Assembly: GCF_036784765.1 (NCBI RefSeq)
Contig: NZ_CP136651.1
Coordinates: 2,790,001 to 2,854,000 of the forward strand
Origin: Novosphingobium sp. ZN18A2
Lineage (GTDB): Bacteria > Pseudomonadota > Alphaproteobacteria > Sphingomonadales > Sphingomonadaceae
Direction of reading: 5' to 3'
DNA: 64,000 bases
Below the pieces are notes generated by a model. The model did not search any database. It saw only the letters and a list, made by a program, of their open reading frames with translations, and was not told the origin of the DNA. Position numbers and translations under genes: made by a program. This document shows, piece by piece, positions 27,821 to 37,051 of the stretch. Within the stretch, counting starts at the first letter, position 1, and each line of letters begins with the position of its first letter.

Positions 27821-28669
27821 GCTGTGGTGACATTTTAGGGATTCACGGCGGCTGAGATTTCTGATTCAACGCTGGCTTTTGGAGGCTGGTGTGGAAGGCG
27901 AGGTTCTCAGGGACGATCAGTGGGAGCGGTTGCGCGAGTTTGTGCCTGGCGGGCGCAAGGGCAAGCGCGGCCCGCGCAGCGATGGACGGCGGTTTCTGGA
28001 TGCCTTGCTGTGGCTGGCGCGTTCAGGTGGGCGCTGGCGCGATCTGCCAGAGAAGTTCGGGCCGTATCAGACCGCGAAGCGACGCTATTATCGCTGGGTC
28101 GAGCAAGGGGTGATCGACCGGATTTTCGAGGCGGTGTCCGACGATCCTGACATCGAGTGGCTGGCGATCGATGCGACCGTGATCCGCGCTCAGGCCCAAG
28201 CTGCCGGAGCACGGGTAAAAAGGGGGGCGCTCAAGCCCAGGCTCCTGGGCGATCCAGAGGAGGGTTCGGCACCAAGGTCCACGCCGTCGTCGACGCCCTC
28301 GGCTTGCCGATCCGCTTCATCCTCGGTCCCGGCCAGCAGAACGACATGGCGCCGGCCTGCGACCTGATCCGAGGCATCCCGGCTGGCCAGGTTCTGGCCG
28401 ACCGGGCCTACGATGCCGACAGCTTGCACGACTTGATCTACGAGCAAGGCGGCGAACCAGTCATCCCGCCCCGCCGCCACCGCAAATACCAGCACCACTA
28501 TGACCGCATCGCCTACAAACAGCGCTGGGGCATCGAGGGTTTCTTTGCCAAGCTCAAGCAATGGCGGCGCATCGCAACTCGCTATGACAAGCTCGCCGCC
28601 AATTTCCTCGGATTCGTCAAACTCGCCAGCATCATGCTTTGGCTGAAATGATTAAATCGTCACCACAGC
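27821..28669 (+). mobile_element. IS5-family (IS427-group-like) insertion sequence, 849 bp
   Basis: Terminal inverted repeats GCTGTGGTGAC (27821-27831) and GTCACCACAGC (28659-28669) are perfect over 11 bp. The element is flanked by CTAG at 27817-27820 and 28670-28673, a 4-bp target duplication of the kind made by IS427-type elements. It carries one transposase in two overlapping frames. Intact ends, a perfect target duplication and an intact frame pair suggest a recent, possibly active copy. Confidence 0.88.
27879..28651 (+). CDS. IS5-family DDE transposase, made by -1 frameshift from two overlapping frames
   Basis: Frame A (27879-28367, TTG start) encodes the N-terminal domain (LRDDQWERLREFVPGG...) and the first catalytic Asp in LAIDATVIRA. 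Frame B (28157-28651) is shifted by -1 and encodes the second Asp in VLADRAYDADSL and the Glu in QRWGIEGFFAKLKQ. The frames join at an A5G6 run near 28217-28227 (GTAAAAAGGGGGGCG), a plausible slippery site in which AAA and GGG can re-pair one base back. The fused product would be about 258 aa, the family length. Programmed frameshifting is known in this group. A disabling mutation is the alternative, but the homopolymer at the exact junction favours frameshifting. Confidence 0.85.
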
Positions 28670-28673
28670 CTAG

Positions 28674-28874
28674 CCGATTGCATGCTAGGGAAATGGTAGC
28701 GGAGGAGGAGTATTTTCTAGACATCTATTATATTGATACATAATGATTTTTGTAATTATCGCACTCAAAATACCCCCACTGATACCCCCAGATTTCCGAT
28801 GCGGCGAAACGCATGTTTTATGCGGCGGTTTGCCGATTTTTCAGCCCAGATCGCGACACCTTCCGTTTCGGCAA
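28674..28874. other. AT-rich island edge without a recognisable gene
   Basis: Apart from the att-like repeat at 28691-28708, this stretch holds no convincing gene. The part 28709-28790 is much richer in A and T than the surroundings (for example TATTATATTGATACATAATG), as expected for acquired DNA. Confidence 0.5.
28691..28708. repeat. att-like direct repeat, distal copy
   Basis: AAATGGTAGCGGAGGAGG, identical to 36972-36989, where it forms the 3' end of tRNA-Met. Here there is no tRNA body next to it. It lies 17 bp after the right target duplication of the IS. Confidence 0.7.
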
Positions 28875-29410: not shown

Positions 29411-29662
29411 ATGAAGCCAGTCACCTACACGCGGGCAGCACTGAAGACCCTACGCAGGATGCCTGCGGACGTAGCGGAACGGATCATAGGGAAAATCGAG
29501 CAATATGCCGCCGCCCCAGCCTCGCAGGCCAACAATGTTACGGTTCTCAAGGGACGAGAAGGTATCCGTTTAAGAGTGGGTGATTGGCGTGTGATCATGA
29601 ATGATGACGGCGTTGTTCTGGCGGTTCTCGATATAGGACCGCGCGGAAGCATCTACGGTTGA
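29411..29662 (+). CDS. RelE/ParE-superfamily toxin
   Basis: 83 aa. It opens KPVTYTRAALKTLRRMP with the basic helix, continues with VTVLKGREGIRLRVGDWRVIM and ends in a short LDIGPRGSIYG, the compact ribosome-dependent mRNA nuclease fold. It is followed, with 11 bp between its stop and the preferred antitoxin ATG, by a helix-turn-helix antitoxin gene. That is a toxin-first order as in higBA. Only 7 bp separate the -10 box from the ATG, so the mRNA may be leaderless or nearly so. Confidence 0.85.
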   Translation: MKPVTYTRAALKTLRRMPADVAERIIGKIEQYAAAPASQANNVTVLKGREGIRLRVGDWRVIMNDDGVVLAVLDIGPRGSIYG

Positions 29663-29673
29663 TGGAGGCAGAT

Positions 29674-30015
29674 ATGGGTGAAATGATTTCGATCCCGCTT
29701 GAGGAATACCGCAGCTTGCAGGCCGCTGCCGAAGAACTGGCCGATCTGCAAGCTTATGACCGTGCCTTGGCGCAGTTGGCAAACGGCGATGAGGAACTGC
29801 TTCCTGCCGAATTGGTGAAGCGCATGCTCTCCGGCGAAAGCCCTCTACGCGTCTGGCGGGAATACCGAGGTCTTACCCAGACCGCCCTCGCTGAAGCTTC
29901 GAGCGTCAACCGGGTGCAGATCGCGGATATCGAGTCTGGACGGAAGAGCGGTTCGATTGAGACGGTCAGGAAGCTGGCTGAAACCTTGGGCATTACTCTC
30001 GATGAATTGATTTAA
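29674..30015 (+). CDS. Xre-family (helix-turn-helix) antitoxin
   Basis: 113 aa. The N-terminal segment (ISIPLEEYRSLQAAAEELADLQAYDRAL) probably wraps the toxin. The C-terminal domain (about residues 55-113) is an Xre helix-turn-helix: LRVWREYRGLTQTALAEASSVNRVQIADIESGRKSGSIETVRKLAETLGITLDEL. I choose the ATG at 29674 because GGAGG (29664-29668) is 5 nt upstream; earlier starts at 29659 and 29662 overlap the toxin stop. It represses the pair's promoter and neutralises RelE. Confidence 0.87.
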   Translation: MGEMISIPLEEYRSLQAAAEELADLQAYDRALAQLANGDEELLPAELVKRMLSGESPLRVWREYRGLTQTALAEASSVNRVQIADIESGRKSGSIETVRKLAETLGITLDELI

Positions 30016-30103: not shown

Positions 30104-30200
30104 AAGAAAAGCCGGTTCCCGAAGGAACCGGCTAAAATGATTTTGTGGATCAAATCCTTGTTAACGGAAAGACCACGCTGCTTGGACTGCTACATCAAGC
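30104..30200 (-). ncRNA. tracrRNA (short form, about 97 nt)
   Basis: Read on the minus strand. The anti-repeat begins at about 30196 (GATGTAGCAGTCCAAGCAGC) and pairs 17 nt without a break with the array repeat; its 3' side CCGTTAAC pairs with the repeat start GTTGCGG apart from one bulged U. A nexus-like hairpin GGAT-TTG-ATCC follows. A Rho-independent terminator closes it: GCCGGTTCC-TTCG-GGAACCGGC (30132 to 30111) then TTTTCTT. The promoter TTGACG-N17-TAACGT (30235-30230 and 30212-30207) predicts a start near 30200. Position and orientation (upstream of cas9, opposite strand) match other tracrRNAs. It guides RNase III processing and Cas9 loading. Confidence 0.88.
30111..30132 (-). terminator. 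tracrRNA terminator with UUCG tetraloop
   Basis: A 9-bp perfect stem GCCGGTTCC/GGAACCGGC closes a TTCG loop in minus-strand reading, followed by TTTTCTT. The T-run is on the minus-strand side, which sets the direction of transcription. Confidence 0.88.
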
Positions 30201-30268: not shown

Positions 30269-30304
30269 GACTCAGCAGTGCAAGCAGCCTGGGCCAACCG
30301 CAAC
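30269..30304 (-). repeat. Degenerate CRISPR repeat upstream of the tracrRNA (crRNA-like half of a natural single guide)
   Basis: 31 of 36 positions match the array repeat. In minus-strand reading the first 14 nt, GTTGCGGTTGGCCC, are unchanged, while changes cluster further in. The unchanged part is what pairs closest to the guide in the crRNA:tracrRNA duplex. On one minus-strand transcript the order is 12-nt guide, this repeat, 72-nt linker, tracrRNA anti-repeat, so repeat and anti-repeat can fold back on each other (8-bp GCTGCTTG and 6-bp ACTGCT blocks plus the lower GTTGCGG stem). Confidence 0.75.
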
Positions 30305-30316
30305 TAAAATGGAGGA
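30305..30316 (-). other. Guide (seed) of the proposed long tracrRNA
   Basis: In minus-strand reading TCCTCCATTTTA lies immediately 5' of the degenerate repeat, the place of the PAM-proximal seed in a crRNA. The same 12 nt occur on the plus strand at 30438-30449 in the cas9 promoter. The match stops exactly at 12 nt; the next four bases all differ. Confidence 0.7.
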
Positions 30317-30419: not shown

Positions 30420-30448
30420 TTGACACAACGGATCAACTCCTCCATTTT
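30420..30448 (+). promoter_or_regulatory. Probable cas9 promoter
   Basis: A perfect -35 box TTGACA (30420-30425) lies inside the hairpin CGTTG-ACA-CAACG. A 17-bp spacer leads to CATTTT (30443-30448) as a weak -10. Transcription would begin near 30455, 35 nt before the cas9 ATG. Other -10 candidates in the AT-rich 30455-30469 stretch remain possible. Confidence 0.5.
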
Positions 30449-30450
30449 AG
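30438..30450 (+). promoter_or_regulatory. Self-target site of the long tracrRNA in the cas9 promoter
   Basis: TCCTCCATTTTAG (30438-30450) is the exact inverted partner of CTAAAATGGAGGA (30304-30316). As a protospacer seed it would read TCCTCCATTTTA with GAAAACAT on its 3' side as PAM region. It overlaps the proposed -10 box, 40 bp before the cas9 start codon. Confidence 0.68.
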
Positions 30451-30489
30451 AAAACATAAATTGTATTAAGAACGACGGGAGCCAAGAGC

Positions 30490-33400
30490 ATGGTTGATCA
30501 GCAGGGCACAACCCAAAAGCGCTGGCGCCTCGGAATCGACCTGGGAACCAATTCGATCGGCTGGGCAGCTTTGTCGCTTGGTGCCAATGGCAAGCCCGAT
30601 GGCCTGCTCGACATGGGCGTGCGGATTTTCTCCGACGCACGCGATCCGCAAAGCCGGGAATCCAATGCCGCCACCCGTCGCGGGCCGCGCGGGGCGCGCC
30701 GCAACCGCGATCGTTATCTGCAACGGCGCGAACAATTTCTGCGCACGCTAACAGAAGCCGGACTATTGCCCGCGGACAAGGCGGCACGCCAAGCACTTGA
30801 GCGGCTCGACCCATGGATCTTGCGCGCCCGCGCCCTGACCGAACCGCTAGACCGACATGAAGTCGGACGCGCGCTGTTCCATTTGCAGCAGCGGCGCGGC
30901 TTCAAGTCCAACCGCCTGACAGACAAGGGCAGCGATGAAAAGGGCGCAGTGGAAAGCGGTGCGGCGGCCCTTCGCGCCGATATGGATGCTGGCGATGCAG
31001 CAACGCTTGGTGAGTTAAAGGGGAACCCGCGCCAAACCATCGCCGAAGAAAACCACAGCCTGCCCAAGGGTGCGCGTAGTCCAATGCCGCTGGCCCGCGT
31101 CCGTACGCACAGCGAAGGCGCGAAGATGGTCTACGACTATTATCCGCTACGCGAGATGATCGAGCAGGAATTCGACGCGATCTGGCAAGCCCAGGCGCGC
31201 CATCACCCGGATGTCATGACCGAAGATGCGCGCACCGCCCTGCGCGACGTTCTCCTGTTCCAGCGCCCGCTCAAGCCGCAGCCGGTCGGGCGCTGCACTT
31301 TCGAGAATGAAGAAGAACGCGCCCCCAGCGCCCTGCCCTCGGTCCAGCAGCTGCGCATCTATCAGGAACTCAATAATCTGCGTGTCTCCGCACGGCCGGG
31401 CGAACCGCAGTTGCCCCTCTCCCCGGCGGAGCGCGACGAGCTGGCCGGGATTGCGCTGAGAAAGGTCAAATTTAGCCTGCGCGATATGCGCGGAGCGCTG
31501 GGCTTGACCGAGGCCGCCATCTTCAGCATCGAAGCGGGCGGTCGCGATTTTCTGGATGGCGACAAGACGCACGACATCATCACCAGGAACCGCAAGAACA
31601 ATACTGGAAACTGGCCGGACTGGGCCGAGTTGCCGCTGGCGGAGCAGGACGCGCTCACCGAAATCCTGCTGGGCCGCGTCGCGCCGGGCCGGGGCAGCCA
31701 CCAGGCGGTGGTCGCGACGCACGAACGCGTGGTCGCACGCATCGTCGCAGGTCTCGGCCTGTCCGAAAGCCGGGCACGCGAATTGCTGGCAGCGAAGGAC
31801 GAGGATGAGATCGCCGCCTTCCTTGCCGAACGGTATGGGCTGGAGCCTTCCCATGCCGCCCGCATTGCCGGCCTGCGCCTGCCCGATGGCCACGGCCGCC
31901 TCAGCCGCACGGCAGGCGACAAAGTGCTGGCGCAACTGATCGAGCCGGACGCCGATGCTCGCTTGCGGACCTATGACCGCGCCGTCGTCGATGCCGGATA
32001 CTTCCACCACAGCCTGAAGGGCACCGGCGAGGTGTTCGACCACCTGCCCTATTACGGCGTGGTGCTCGAACAGTCGGTTGCCTTCGGCTCCGGCGATGCG
32101 AGCGACATCGAGGAAAAGCGGATCGGCAAGCTGGCCAACCCCACCGTCCATGTCGCGCTCAACCAGTTGCGCCGGGTGGTCAACGCGCTGATCGACCGCT
32201 TCGGCCCACCTGCGGAAATCGTGGTGGAACTGTCGCGCGATCTGCCGCTGGGCGCGTTCGACTTGGGCAAGTTAAAGAACAAGCAAAACGAGAACCGGAA
32301 GGCCAATGAAAAGCTTTCTGAAAGGCTTGCCGAGTTTGGAGCACCAAACAATTATAATAACCGCCTGTTTCTGCGCCTTTGGGATGAACTGGATGCGTTA
32401 GGCCGCAAATGCCCCTTCACCGGGCAGCACCTGTCGCAAGAACTGCTTGTCAGGAGTCTCAAAGGTTCCGGCGAACTCGAGGTTGAACACATCCTCCCCT
32501 TCTCCCGCACGCTCGACGATGGCTTTAACAACAAGGTGCTGGCCCTGCGCGAAGCCAATCGCCGCAAGGGCAGGCTCAGCCCATGGGAAGCGGTGGAAAA
32601 CGGCATTTTCGACCGCGAGACGATCGAAAACTCTCTGCGCGATCTGCCCCCTGCGAAGGCCTGGCGCTTCAGCCCCGATGCGATGGAGCGGTTCGAGAAA
32701 GAGGAACGCGATTTCCTCGACCGGCAGTTGAATGACAACAAGAATATCTCGCGCCTCGCCGCGCAATATCTCAAAAGCCTGGGTTCCGATGTCTGGGTCA
32801 TCAACGGCCGTCTCACCGCCGATCTGCGCCACCATTGGGGGCTGAATAAGGGCTGGCGTGGAGACAACCGCAACCCGGCGGATAGCGAAGCGGATGAGGT
32901 AAAGAAAAACCGCAACGATCACTGCCATCACGCAGTCGACGCCTTCGTGATCGCCTGCACCGACCGCGCGATGGTCAAGGCCGCGGCGGATGAGGCGAAG
33001 AAAGTGGAAGAGGAATTCACCGCCGGGAGGCGCGATCATCGACGCCTCCTGGCTGGGTTGCCCGATCCCTTCGATGGCTATCTGCTTGCGGTGAAGGAGG
33101 CAGTCGGCAAAATCGTGGTCAGCCACAAGCCCGATCACGGCATTGAAGGCAAGCTGCACGAAGCCACCAATTACGGCGTTGTGCAAACACAGGCGGGCGA
33201 GACTCGGCTCGCCACCCGCAAGCCCATTATCGACCTTACCCCCGGCGAAGTAGCCAGTATCGGCGATGACCGCATTCGCCGCGAACTTGTCGCACTGACC
33301 GATGGACTTGGCGACAAGGAGCGCAAGCAGGCATTGCTCGAATACAGCCAGCGCACCGGCCACAAGCGCGTGCGCGTCCACAAGGTGCAGGCCAGTTTCG

Positions 33401-33870
33401 AACGGATCGCGCACGGGCCGGACAGCAAGGGCAAATCCCACACCCGCGCTGTCATTCCGGGCGACAACTATTGTATGGACATCATCGAAACGCCGGACGG
33501 CAAATGGCACGGCGTCGCCGTCACCCGATTTCAGGCGCACAAGTTCAAGAAGGATGATGCGTGGAAGACACTCTGGCGCAAGGACTACCCCGATGGGCGC
33601 CTTACCATGCGCGTTCGCAATGGCGACCTGCTGATGCTAGAACATGAAGGCGAAGAAAAGGTGATGCAGGTGGTGCGCCTTAACCCGTCCGGCAATCGCC
33701 TTTATCTTGCGCCTGCTTATGAAGCAGGGAAATTCGCGGATCGTCACAAGGATACAGACGATGAATTCCGCTGGGATCTCGCCGGCATAAGCGGGCTGAA
33801 ACCCCGCAAGGCTCGCCTCGTGCGCGTGACACCCGATGGGCAGTTGCTGGATCCCGGACCTCCCGCCTAA
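30490..33870 (+). CDS. cas9: Type II-C CRISPR-associated endonuclease Cas9
   Basis: 1126-aa RNA-guided DNA nuclease. RuvC-I is RLGIDLGTNSIGWA with catalytic D17. The arginine-rich bridge helix covers about residues 56-82. RuvC-II is EIVVELSRDL with E580. The HNH core is LEVEHILPFSR with H667 and N690 in REANRRKG. RuvC-III is HHAVDAFVIA with H814 and D817. All catalytic residues are present, so the enzyme looks active. A wedge/PAM-interacting region fills the C-terminus from about residue 900. Size and the absence of csn2 and cas4 place it in subtype II-C. GGGAG lies upstream of the ATG. The PAM cannot be read from sequence alone. Confidence 0.97.
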   Translation: MVDQQGTTQKRWRLGIDLGTNSIGWAALSLGANGKPDGLLDMGVRIFSDARDPQSRESNAATRRGPRGARRNRDRYLQRREQFLRTLTEAGLLPADKAARQALERLDPWILRARALTEPLDRHEVGRALFHLQQRRGFKSNRLTDKGSDEKGAVESGAAALRADMDAGDAATLGELKGNPRQTIAEENHSLPKGARSPMPLARVRTHSEGAKMVYDYYPLREMIEQEFDAIWQAQARHHPDVMTEDARTALRDVLLFQRPLKPQPVGRCTFENEEERAPSALPSVQQLRIYQELNNLRVSARPGEPQLPLSPAERDELAGIALRKVKFSLRDMRGALGLTEAAIFSIEAGGRDFLDGDKTHDIITRNRKNNTGNWPDWAELPLAEQDALTEILLGRVAPGRGSHQAVVATHERVVARIVAGLGLSESRARELLAAKDEDEIAAFLAERYGLEPSHAARIAGLRLPDGHGRLSRTAGDKVLAQLIEPDADARLRTYDRAVVDAGYFHHSLKGTGEVFDHLPYYGVVLEQSVAFGSGDASDIEEKRIGKLANPTVHVALNQLRRVVNALIDRFGPPAEIVVELSRDLPLGAFDLGKLKNKQNENRKANEKLSERLAEFGAPNNYNNRLFLRLWDELDALGRKCPFTGQHLSQELLVRSLKGSGELEVEHILPFSRTLDDGFNNKVLALREANRRKGRLSPWEAVENGIFDRETIENSLRDLPPAKAWRFSPDAMERFEKEERDFLDRQLNDNKNISRLAAQYLKSLGSDVWVINGRLTADLRHHWGLNKGWRGDNRNPADSEADEVKKNRNDHCHHAVDAFVIACTDRAMVKAAADEAKKVEEEFTAGRRDHRRLLAGLPDPFDGYLLAVKEAVGKIVVSHKPDHGIEGKLHEATNYGVVQTQAGETRLATRKPIIDLTPGEVASIGDDRIRRELVALTDGLGDKERKQALLEYSQRTGHKRVRVHKVQASFERIAHGPDSKGKSHTRAVIPGDNYCMDIIETPDGKWHGVAVTRFQAHKFKKDDAWKTLWRKDYPDGRLTMRVRNGDLLMLEHEGEEKVMQVVRLNPSGNRLYLAPAYEAGKFADRHKDTDDEFRWDLAGISGLKPRKARLVRVTPDGQLLDPGPPA

Positions 33871-33926
33871 CACACTGTTAACCATATTCTGCGACAACCG
33901 GTGCGCTTCATTTGGGAGTGGACCTG

Positions 33927-34835
33927 ATGCAGCAGCGCATCGTCGAAATCGCAAGCGACGGGATACACCTGTCCGCCTTCCGCGGCTTCATGCGAATTTC
34001 CCGTGCGGATGAGGAACTGGGCCGCGTGCCCTTTGCCGACATCGGCGCGGTCATCCTGCGCGGGCATGGCAGCACGCTTTCGGTCAATCTGTGTACGCGC
34101 CTGTCTGATGCCGGCGCACCGCTGGTCATCTGCGGCTCGAACCAGTCCCCCGCCTCGCTGCTCTGGCCAGTGCGCGGACACTACGAACAGGGCCGCCGCA
34201 TGGAAGCGCAGGCAGAGGCCTCCCGCCCCTTGCGCAAGCGTGCATGGCGCGACCTCGTCAGCGCCAAGATCGCAGCTCAGGCGGCAGTTCTCGAAGCGAC
34301 CACGGGCAAGGATGCGCGCCTCGATCGGATGGCGCGGGAAGTGAAATCAGGCGATAGTGACAATCTCGAAGCACAGGCCGCGCGGCGCTATTGGAATGCA
34401 CTGTTCGGGCCGGATTTCCTGCGCGATCGGCAGGCAGAAGGCATCAATTCCGCGCTCAATTACGGCTATACCGTACTTCGCGCGGGCACTGCTCGCTCAA
34501 TCCTTGCCGCGGGGCTTCACCCATCGCTTTCCATCCATCACACCAGCCGGGGCGATGCCCTGCGCCTAGCCGACGATCTGATGGAACCGTTCCGGCCCTG
34601 GCTCGACCTGCTTGTTTGGCGAATGACCCGCGAAGAACCCGTTTCGGAACTTACAAGCGCGATGAAAGGCCATCTCGCCGAAGTGCTCACGCTCGATCTT
34701 CCGGGGACTGATGGTGTCAGCCCCATCCAGATCTGGCTCGATCGCCTGGCGCTTTCCTGGGCAAAGATCTGCATGGGTGAAGCCGGAAAGCTGGACCTGC
34801 CCGGCCAGCCCTCGCCGCTGGAACTCAGCACGTGA
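33927..34835 (+). CDS. cas1: CRISPR integrase Cas1
   Basis: 302 aa. It opens QQRIVEIASDGIHLSAFRGFM (N-terminal beta domain). Metal ligands are expected in LEAQAARRYW (Glu), SIHHTSRGDA (His) and ADDLMEPFRPW (Asp/Glu), all present. It inserts new spacers with Cas2. I use the ATG at 33927, with GGGAG upstream and an N-terminus aligning with type II Cas1; the TTG at 33912 adds five residues. Ends overlapping the cas2 GTG (GTGA). Confidence 0.95.
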   Translation: MQQRIVEIASDGIHLSAFRGFMRISRADEELGRVPFADIGAVILRGHGSTLSVNLCTRLSDAGAPLVICGSNQSPASLLWPVRGHYEQGRRMEAQAEASRPLRKRAWRDLVSAKIAAQAAVLEATTGKDARLDRMAREVKSGDSDNLEAQAARRYWNALFGPDFLRDRQAEGINSALNYGYTVLRAGTARSILAAGLHPSLSIHHTSRGDALRLADDLMEPFRPWLDLLVWRMTREEPVSELTSAMKGHLAEVLTLDLPGTDGVSPIQIWLDRLALSWAKICMGEAGKLDLPGQPSPLELST

Positions 34836-35164
34836 CGCACCTCAGCGGGTATCGGATCATGTGGATAATGGTGCTGTTCGATCTTCCTGTCCTGACGCCC
34901 GAAGAGCGTAAGGCAGCCACTGGCTTCCGCAACTACCTGCTCGATGAAGGCTTTGAAATGGCGCAGTTTTCGGTGTATCTTCGCTGTACGCCAAGCAAGG
35001 AAGCCGCAGCTGCCTATATCCGCCGAATCGAGACAGCAGTCCCGAGCGACGGCAAGGTGGACATTCTGCAATTCACGGATCGTCAGTATGAAAATATCAT
35101 CTGTTTTCGCGGGCGGATGCGCGAATCAAGCCCGGAAAAACCGAGCCAGCTCCTCCTTTTCTAG
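34832..35164 (+). CDS. cas2: CRISPR-associated Cas2
   Basis: 110 aa with GTG start overlapping the cas1 stop. MVLFDLPVLTPEERKAATGFRNYLLDEGFEM is the ferredoxin-like first half; the C-terminal tail PSQLLLF is typical for type II Cas2. It forms the Cas1-Cas2 spacer-integration complex. The last gene of the cas operon, closed by a terminator that begins within it. Confidence 0.95.
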   Translation: MTHLSGYRIMWIMVLFDLPVLTPEERKAATGFRNYLLDEGFEMAQFSVYLRCTPSKEAAAAYIRRIETAVPSDGKVDILQFTDRQYENIICFRGRMRESSPEKPSQLLLF

Positions 35165-35182
35165 GTGGAACTGGCTCGTTTT
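35142..35182. terminator. Bidirectional terminator between cas2 and the CRISPR array
   Basis: CGAGCCAG (35142-35149) and CTGGCTCG (35171-35178) form an 8-bp stem with a 21-nt loop containing the cas2 stop. TTTT follows on the plus strand, and the minus strand reads GTTTTTCC after the stem. It can therefore stop both cas transcription and array transcription arriving from the right. Confidence 0.68.
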
Positions 35183-35236
35183 CCAGTGGCAGGAAGCCAA
35201 GTTTTTCTTTTCCCTCCAGCCATTTACCGCAATTCA
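35183..35236. other. Short flank between terminator and first repeat
   Basis: 54 bp with a pyrimidine run (TTTTTCTTTTCCCTCC on the plus strand). It is the only candidate leader-like flank of the array, since the other end is cut off by the integrase remnant. Leader function is not demonstrated. Confidence 0.3.
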
Positions 35237-36779
35237 GATTTAGCAGTCCAAGCAGCGCGGGCCAACCGCAACAGCCGTCAAGCGCCTATCTCCGCTGCCA
35301 GTGATTTAGCAGTCCAAGCAGCGCGGGCCAACCGCAACAAGGCGGCCCAGCGCGGCGTTGCTGATTTGGATTTAGCAGTCCAAGCAGCGCGGGCCAACCG
35401 CAACATCACCAGCCTCCATGCGCTTCGCTGGTTGATTTAGCAGTCCAAGCAGCGCGGGCCAACCGCAACTCACCGACGTGAATGGCATCACCTATTACGG
35501 ATTTAGCAGTCCAAGCAGCGCGGGCCAACCGCAACGCACATGACGCGAGGCAACGCAGCGCAACGATTTAGCAGTCCAAGCAGCGCGGGCCAACCGCAAC
35601 CAGCGTCCTCGTCACGCCATCTATAGAAAGGATTTAGCAGTCCAAGCAGCGCGGGCCAACCGCAACTGACGTGGAAGTTCTCCGGCTCGAGGTAGGCGAT
35701 TTAGCAGTCCAAGCAGCGCGGGCCAACCGCAACGATCACACCGATCTCGAATTTCAGGGGATCGATTTAGCAGTCCAAGCAGCGCGGGCCAACCGCAACT
35801 GGCGGGATCGGGCCATGTAGAACCCGGTCGATTTAGCAGTCCAAGCAGCGCGGGCCAACCGCAACGCTTACGTCCGTCTCATCTCGATCAGCGACGATTT
35901 AGCAGTCCAAGCAGCGCGGGCCAACCGCAACGAGAGGGCCAGCAGCGCGAGCACCGCCAGCGATTTAGCAGTCCAAGCAGCGCGGGCCAACCGCAACTAG
36001 GGCAACCATGCCCATCTCCTCGATTGTGATTTAGCAGTCCAAGCAGCGCGGGCCAACCGCAACGCTGCCCTTGCCTGCGCATCGCCACTATCAGATTTAG
36101 CAGTCCAAGCAGCGCGGGCCAACCGCAACACCGATAACGGACGCGCCTTCGCCAGCAAGATTTAGCAGTCCAAGCAGCGCGGGCCAACCGCAACTCAGGT
36201 TTTCTCCGCCTTCCAGGCGATCGCGATTTAGCAGTCCAAGCAGCGCGGGCCAACCGCAACAAGTTGGCGCGACTGCCGGCGTGCCGCCTGATTTAGCAGT
36301 CCAAGCAGCGCGGGCCAACCGCAACGCCAAGCGGTTATTCAAGACGCTTGGCAGGGATTTAGCAGTCCAAGCAGCGCGGGCCAACCGCAACCTTCCATCT
36401 TTACGCCGTGTATCTTTGCGTGATTTAGCAGTCCAAGCAGCGCGGGCCAACCGCAACGGCCTTCCTGATGCCGATCAATGACGATCAGATTTAGCAGTCC
36501 AAGCAGCGCGGGCCAACCGCAACGCGCGATGTAGTTCGCCGTGCCTGCCGCCGATTTAGCAGTCCAAGCAGCGCGGGCCAACCGCAACAAGTACTTTATG
36601 GTAGTGGTCACCCTTTAAGATTTAGCAGTCCAAGCAGCGCGGGCCAACCGCAACGGCCGGGATATCCTCGGGCTCAATCCCGTTGATTTAGCAGTCCAAG
36701 CAGCGCGGGCCAACCGCAACCAGATGCGGAACAGCGCCGCGCCATAGTCGGATTTAGCAGTCCAAGCAGCGCGGGCCAA
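35237..36779 (-). CRISPR. CRISPR array, 24 repeats (last one truncated) and 23 spacers
   Basis: The 36-bp repeat (plus strand starts GATTTAGCAGTCC, ends CCAACCGCAAC) is identical in all 23 complete copies. Spacers are 30 nt, except 29 nt for numbers 3, 5, 14, 16 and 20 and 31 nt for number 7, counted from the cas2 side. Repeat 24 (36751-36779) keeps 29 nt and lacks CCGCAAC. The crRNA sense is the minus strand: the repeat then starts GTTGCGG, as in II-C systems, pairs with the minus-strand tracrRNA, and ends in TGCTAAATC, an extended -10. With TTGGCC 17 bp upstream, each repeat carries a possible promoter, giving crRNAs with about 24 nt of spacer. Confidence 0.97.
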
Positions 36780-36906
36780 GGGACTCACCGATGACGAGAT
36801 CGCCAGAGTGGTCGGTTGGACCGCCAAACGCGTCTCCAAAATCCGTGCCAGATATGTCGACGAAGCCCGCGTCGTGATCAGCCTGGTCGAACGCCTGAGC
36901 GCGTGA
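36778..36906 (+). pseudogene. C-terminal remnant of a tyrosine-type integrase
   Basis: 42 codons before TGA: KGLTDDEIARVVGWTAKRVS, then KIRARYVDEARVVISLVERL. GW followed by RYVD fits the end of tyrosine recombinases, where Trp replaces the second His and Tyr is the nucleophile. The Arg and His-x-x-Arg parts are missing. The fragment starts directly at the truncated 24th repeat and ends 68 bp from the tRNA-Met 3' end, the expected site of an island integrase gene. Confidence 0.72.
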
Positions 36907-36971: not shown

Positions 36972-36989
36972 AAATGGTAGCGGAGGAGG
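36972..36989. repeat. att-like direct repeat, tRNA-side copy
   Basis: AAATGGTAGCGGAGGAGG, identical to 28691-28708. Bases 36975-36989 are the last 15 nt of tRNA-Met including CCA. Confidence 0.7.
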
Positions 36990-37051
36990 GACTTGAACCC
37001 CCGACACGCGGATTATGATTCCGCTGCTCTAACCAGCTGAGCTACTCCGCC
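36975..37051 (-). tRNA. tRNA-Met (anticodon CAT)
   Basis: 77 nt in minus reading: GGCGGAGTAGCTCAGCTGG opening, D-loop GGTTAGAGC, anticodon stem GCGGA/TCCGC with loop ATCATAA (anticodon CAT), T-arm GGGGGTTCAAGTCCCTC, and encoded 3' CCA. The features suit elongator methionine tRNA; a lysidine-modified isoleucine tRNA also carries CAT and cannot be fully excluded. Its 3' end is the integration site of the CRISPR island. Confidence 0.93.

Follow-up and report, generated by a model that had tools for sequence, protein, structure and literature searches.

A type II-C-like CRISPR array joined to an integrase remnant in a tRNA-Met island of Novosphingobium sp. ZN18A2

The CRISPR-Cas9 locus

The window analyzed here is a 64,000-nucleotide stretch of the Novosphingobium sp. 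ZN18A2 genome (contig NZ_CP136651.1, positions 2,790,001 to 2,854,000). On its plus strand lie cas9 (30490-33870), encoding a 1126 aa protein with HNH_4 and RuvC_III domains (TIGR01865, 537 bits against a cut-off of 100), a type II cas1 (33912-34835; TIGR03639, 230 bits against 120) and cas2 (34832-35164; TIGR01573 and PF09827). A tracrRNA is encoded on the minus strand at 30110-30196, with its antirepeat at 30173-30196 and a terminator hairpin at 30110-30133. In the open reading frame list, neither csn2 nor cas4 is present between the cas genes and the array (35164 to 35237). A Cas9 with HNH and RuvC domains, a set of cas genes limited to cas9-cas1-cas2, 36-nt repeats and a tracrRNA with a matching antirepeat are all features of type II-C systems; the PADLOC Cas9 models matched here do not separate subtypes, and the locus is described as type II-C-like. 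The closest Cas9 proteins found are 51-53% identical.

The array extends from 35237 to 36779, with its crRNA strand on the minus strand, and consists of 23 whole repeats, 23 spacers of approximately 30 nt and one cut repeat. The 36-nt repeat, GTTGCGGTTGGCCCGCGCTGCTTGGACTGCTAAATC, occurs in 23 exact copies on the minus strand between 35237 and 36720, where none would be expected by chance, and the original prediction that all other repeats are identical is thus correct. The 24th repeat, at the leader-distal end (36751-36779, minus strand), is exact over 29 of 36 nt and stops there, as had also been proposed; the genome contains this 29-nt form, TTGGCCCGCGCTGCTTGGACTGCTAAATC, 24 times, all within the array, the final copy being the one at 36751-36779. 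Spacer 23 (36721-36750, minus strand) is located between the cut repeat and the intact repeat 23 (36685-36720), which provides its crRNA handle. New spacers probably enter at the cas2 side, so the repeat 24 end would be the oldest end of the array, and spacer 23 the oldest spacer retained.

Viral contigs contain no exact match to spacer 23, and the matches to phages are partial, chance-like and unconvincing. The exact repeat was not found in a collection of 84,980 species genomes, a Cas9 peptide scan of genome contigs did not recover the array elsewhere, and a plasmid search for it returned only distant Cas9s.

The integrase remnant

Past position 36779, the plus strand continues as GGGACTCACC..., and the junction is sharp. 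The frame 36778-36903, followed by a TGA stop codon at 36904-36906, encodes K-GLTDDEIARVVGWTAKRVSKIRARYVDEARVVISLVERLSA, the 42-codon C-terminal end of a tRNA-Met tyrosine recombinase; the AA at 36778-36779 is common to this tail and the repeat. The cut repeat does therefore run straight into the recombinase tail, as predicted. The stub matches the C-terminus of proteins of approximately 345-398 aa from the same genus, the closest with 66-78% identity. Two full-length relatives were profiled and both are PF00589 phage integrases, and most of the best full-length matches end approximately 70-95 bp from a nearly identical tRNA-Met in members of the genus. A helix-turn-helix identity for the stub (HTH_23, Pfam) was rejected, as the match is below the curated cut-off.

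Tyrosine recombinases are recognized by Arg, HxxR, His/Trp and Tyr residues, of which the stub keeps only the Trp, in a GW box, and the catalytic Tyr, in an RYVD box. The HDLRG (His-x-x-Arg) box and all preceding integrase sequence are missing from the window. Comparison with the full-length relatives thus bears out the claim that the GW and RYVD motifs were kept and the Arg/His part was lost. At E<=0.001, the window's genome contains no further pieces of the integrase. A search of plasmids for the tail found none, and a 53% relative of the complete integrase was found in one viral contig.

CRISPR-free stubs of this family are present in four other genomes (G027, G162, G168 and G218). In G027 (L040), the stub is followed by TGGTAGCGGAGGAGGGA and then by non-tRNA DNA, and this flanking sequence fits the expectation for an att site. 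The window stub and the L040 tail are separated by 20 synonymous and 5 other codon differences, with 10, 4 and 21 differences at the first, second and third codon positions. Because these differences are mostly synonymous or in the third position, the stub diverged as coding DNA, still bears a signature of coding selection and was cut late. Three of the stubs (at 36778 in the window, L051 in G162 and L049 in G218) have breakpoints that fall within approximately 7 nt of one another and adjoin unrelated DNA. Simulation puts the chance of this clustering at 0.01-0.08, which is too weak, and it was dropped as a signal.

The tRNA-Met island

The integration target is an intact tRNA-Met (CAU) on the minus strand at 36975-37051. 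Its 3' end carries the attachment-site repeat AAATGGTAGCGGAGGAGG (36972-36989), and a second copy, matching over 18 bp, is located at the far island end (28691-28708). The 15-bp att core occurs at exactly two places in the 3.30-Mb single-contig genome, 28694 and 36975. The att repeats bracket an 8.3-kb island containing a toxin-antitoxin pair, the tracrRNA, cas9, cas1, cas2, the array and the stub, with a G+C content of 59.4% against 63.6% for the window. The pair consists of a ParE-type toxin (29411-29662, plus strand), encoded between the far att copy and the tracrRNA, and its partner HTH antitoxin (29659-30015, plus strand), and may stabilise the island. The tRNA-Met is an integration hotspot, because relatives carry many different sequences there. 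Of the features expected of a tRNA island, direct repeats of the tRNA 3' end at both ends and different DNA at the site in relatives are both present, and the functional integrase beside the tRNA is represented only by the 42-codon stub. The window locus is the remnant of a tRNA-integrated genomic island.

An IS5-like insertion encoding a DUF4096 transposase (27821-28669, plus strand), with 10-bp inverted ends and a CTAG target duplication, is positioned just outside the far att copy. Beside the same copy, the sequence at 28760-28800, AAAATACCCCCACTGATACCCCCAGA, resembles by eye the left side of the same tRNA in G208 (L070), a hint that the island could be a composite of two elements. The gene dbpA was considered as the ancestral left neighbour of the tRNA and rejected, as G036 has dbpA at that position but in the opposite orientation.

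In a survey of Vibrio species, type II-B systems adjoin tRNA-Met with an integrase, and type I-F systems also adjoin tRNA-Met (PMC6360697). The window resembles these islands in that a CRISPR-Cas system is located in an island with att repeats and an integrase. However, its system is type II-C-like, the island is 8.3 kb long, and the integrase is a 42-codon stub fused to the array.

Array ends in related loci

A total of 54 related Cas9 loci were fetched, and 34 arrays, including that of the window, show the cas2-distal end within the fetched DNA. By the author's tally, the final repeat, placed at spacer distance, is partial or degenerate in 14 of these 34 arrays. The cut repeats retain 31 nt in L204, 29 nt in L207, 25 nt in L218, 23 nt in L125, 21 nt in L192 and 14 nt in L128, and the retained part is in each case the side facing the last spacer, as the geometry requires. 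A cut last repeat is common in related arrays and is not special by itself. This is also the view of a review in which terminal repeat changes at the trailer end are described as common (PMC8047081). The window array is like these in having a truncated last repeat and identical internal repeats, but unlike them in that the cut is traceable to an integrase-gene junction. The case is ordinary in kind, with a well-preserved array-end origin.

A tRNA gene is located within approximately 3 kb in 9 of 55 Cas9 loci (L128, L192, L132, L123, L129, L199, L207, L202 and the window), and its 3' end faces the CRISPR locus in all nine. This orientation fits the expectation for tRNA-integrated islands, and the nine loci suggest that Cas9 is regularly carried by such islands in this bacterial class. 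The closest parallel is L192 (G822), in which 38 bp, containing no integrase, separate the cut repeat from a tRNA-Met. A second, distantly related Cas9 locus occurs at the same tRNA-Met in G046 (L128, 7069-13349). There, the region from array to tRNA contains the 14-nt repeat remnant, the remains of a phage baseplate gene and, beside the tRNA, an N-terminally cut integrase. In another of the loci, on an Azospirillum thermophilum plasmid (L154, 3992-7236), cas9 is annotated as two overlapping pieces, probably reflecting a frameshift or a split gene.

Transcription of the terminal spacer

In crRNA polarity, the 29 nt that were kept read TTGGCC-N17-TAAATC. The original prediction saw in them a minimal repeat promoter, and this proposal fares poorly. 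Within the -10 region, T31 and A32 do not vary among 24 related repeats, and the -35-like block is unconserved: it begins with T in 11 repeats and with C in another 11, and most of the repeats match just 1-3 of its 6 bases. The -10 of the window repeat matches 3 of 6 bases, and a consensus promoter scan found none. The TTGGCC block does lie within the 29 nt, as claimed, although what was kept is just the part adjoining the last spacer.

Other type II-C systems have documented -10-like starts within their repeats (PMC7038990). The window array is similar to those of Neisseria and C. cellulolyticum (PMC7038990, PMC10309648), both in being read opposite to the cas genes and in the -10-like end on each repeat; unlike in those systems, the promoter here is putative, with a weak -10 match (3/6). 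By analogy, transcription of spacer 23 from the cut repeat is possible. Read-through from the tRNA-Met, which points the same way, could be an alternative source of the transcript. From these considerations we infer that crRNA production from spacer 23 may have continued, and the crRNA, if made, would be normal, because its handle comes from the intact repeat 23.

Origin of the junction

A tyrosine recombinase would have inserted the 8.3-kb island, with its type II-C-like locus, at the tRNA-Met 3' end, with the integrase gene originally located between the array and the tRNA and pointing toward the tRNA. A rearrangement, most simply a single deletion, would then have removed the integrase start, the HxxR box and the intervening DNA. 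This event would have fused codon 42 from the integrase end to the middle of an array repeat, leaving spacer 23 as the last retained spacer. The whole account, in which a rearrangement truncated the integrase of a tRNA-Met island and fused the remaining stub to the oldest array end, is given a probability of about 75%. The join is clean, and the repeat end GGGCCAA and the integrase sequence CAAGGGACT (as in L043 and L044) have CAA in common. It may be that this reflects illegitimate joining at a microhomology, with the integrase bases taken from L043 and L044 and not from the ancestor. The sharp deletion proposed originally is thus supported as regards the sharpness of the junction. A single event is less secure: the comparison with related islands that had been suggested as a check did find full-length integrases at the same tRNA-Met, but none of the relatives has this array beside a whole integrase.

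The main rival to one deletion, the simplest account, is an older stub. The integrase could already have been a stub at the tRNA when CRISPR DNA with a pre-cut last repeat was joined to it, the two truncations being independent. Same-family stubs without CRISPR exist in G027, G162, G168 and G218, which would allow the stub to predate the junction, and truncation or degeneration of the last repeat is frequent, as 14 of 34 array ends show. However, both sides end at one base position without filler, and the possible CAA microhomology suits a single joining event; this history is considered unlikely. The left and right island ends could also come from different tandem elements, a reading to which the G208-like DNA beside the far att copy lends some support.

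Selection offers a different explanation, in which the 29 nt are maintained as a promoter for spacer 23 and the stub and att site as a site for a related integrase acting in trans. The kept part of the repeat does span the -35-like and -10-like boxes with their 17-nt spacing, neither att core is damaged, and the stubs of the window, G162 and G218 break close together. Against this, the -35 block is unconserved and the -10 is weak, the clustering has the chance probability given above, and geometry makes every cut distal repeat keep the same side; selection of this kind is very improbable. Scarcely better placed is the related idea that the integrase tail and att core form a recurrently kept module, leaving the CRISPR cargo movable in trans by intact relatives. 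An assembly or sequencing artefact is the most remote of these explanations, as the genome is complete in a single contig and the join unites two parts that are expected at this tRNA; nothing was found in its support.

If the rearrangement took place as proposed, the island could no longer excise by itself, although both att cores persist. The suggestion that the deletion locked the island in place is a fair one, given that tRNA-derived direct repeats bracket the island and its own integrase is gone, and the island is probably unable to leave by itself, a common outcome for loci of this kind. The rearrangement would explain one CRISPR array end and illustrate how a mobile immune locus can become chromosomally fixed.

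A putative single guide upstream of cas9

On the minus strand, a degenerate repeat (30269-30304) lies upstream of the tracrRNA antirepeat, with which it can pair; the z-score is -6.3 when the stretch scored includes the terminator and -2.5 when a shorter one lacking it is used. Immediately 5' of the degenerate repeat are 12 nt, TCCTCCATTTTA (the two together spanning 30269-30316, minus strand), that have a second exact copy at 30438-30449, downstream of the TTGACA at 30420 and 40 bp short of the cas9 start. Equivalent layouts occur in G101 (L123), with a different 12-nt pair, and in G1105 (L190), a closer Cas9 relative, with a 9-nt pair. Leaving aside copies inside the second array of L125, the search showed a degenerate repeat at this position in three loci only (the window, L123 and L190), and all three have the guide match. 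The expected frequency of a random match in a 230-bp segment is approximately 5e-4 for a 12-mer and 6e-3 for a 9-mer.

The layout is that of tracr-L, which in the type II-A system of S. pyogenes serves as a natural single guide repressing the cas genes (PMC11417352). A tracr-L-like natural single guide before cas9 is therefore possible, and would point to autorepression by Cas9 in a system of the type II-C-like kind. A scaRNA of the N. meningitidis type II-C system is reported to act post-transcriptionally (PMC13431127). If confirmed, the putative guide would matter more than the array end, because the literature covered places cas-repressing natural single guides in type II-A only; it may also interest specialists more than the array-integrase junction. 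Immediately after the putative guide targets, GAAAACAT in the window (30450-30457) and GCGAACGT in L190 (past the 9-nt target) share GNNAACNT, which may hint at a PAM, as the Cas9 proteins of the window and L190 are 51% identical.
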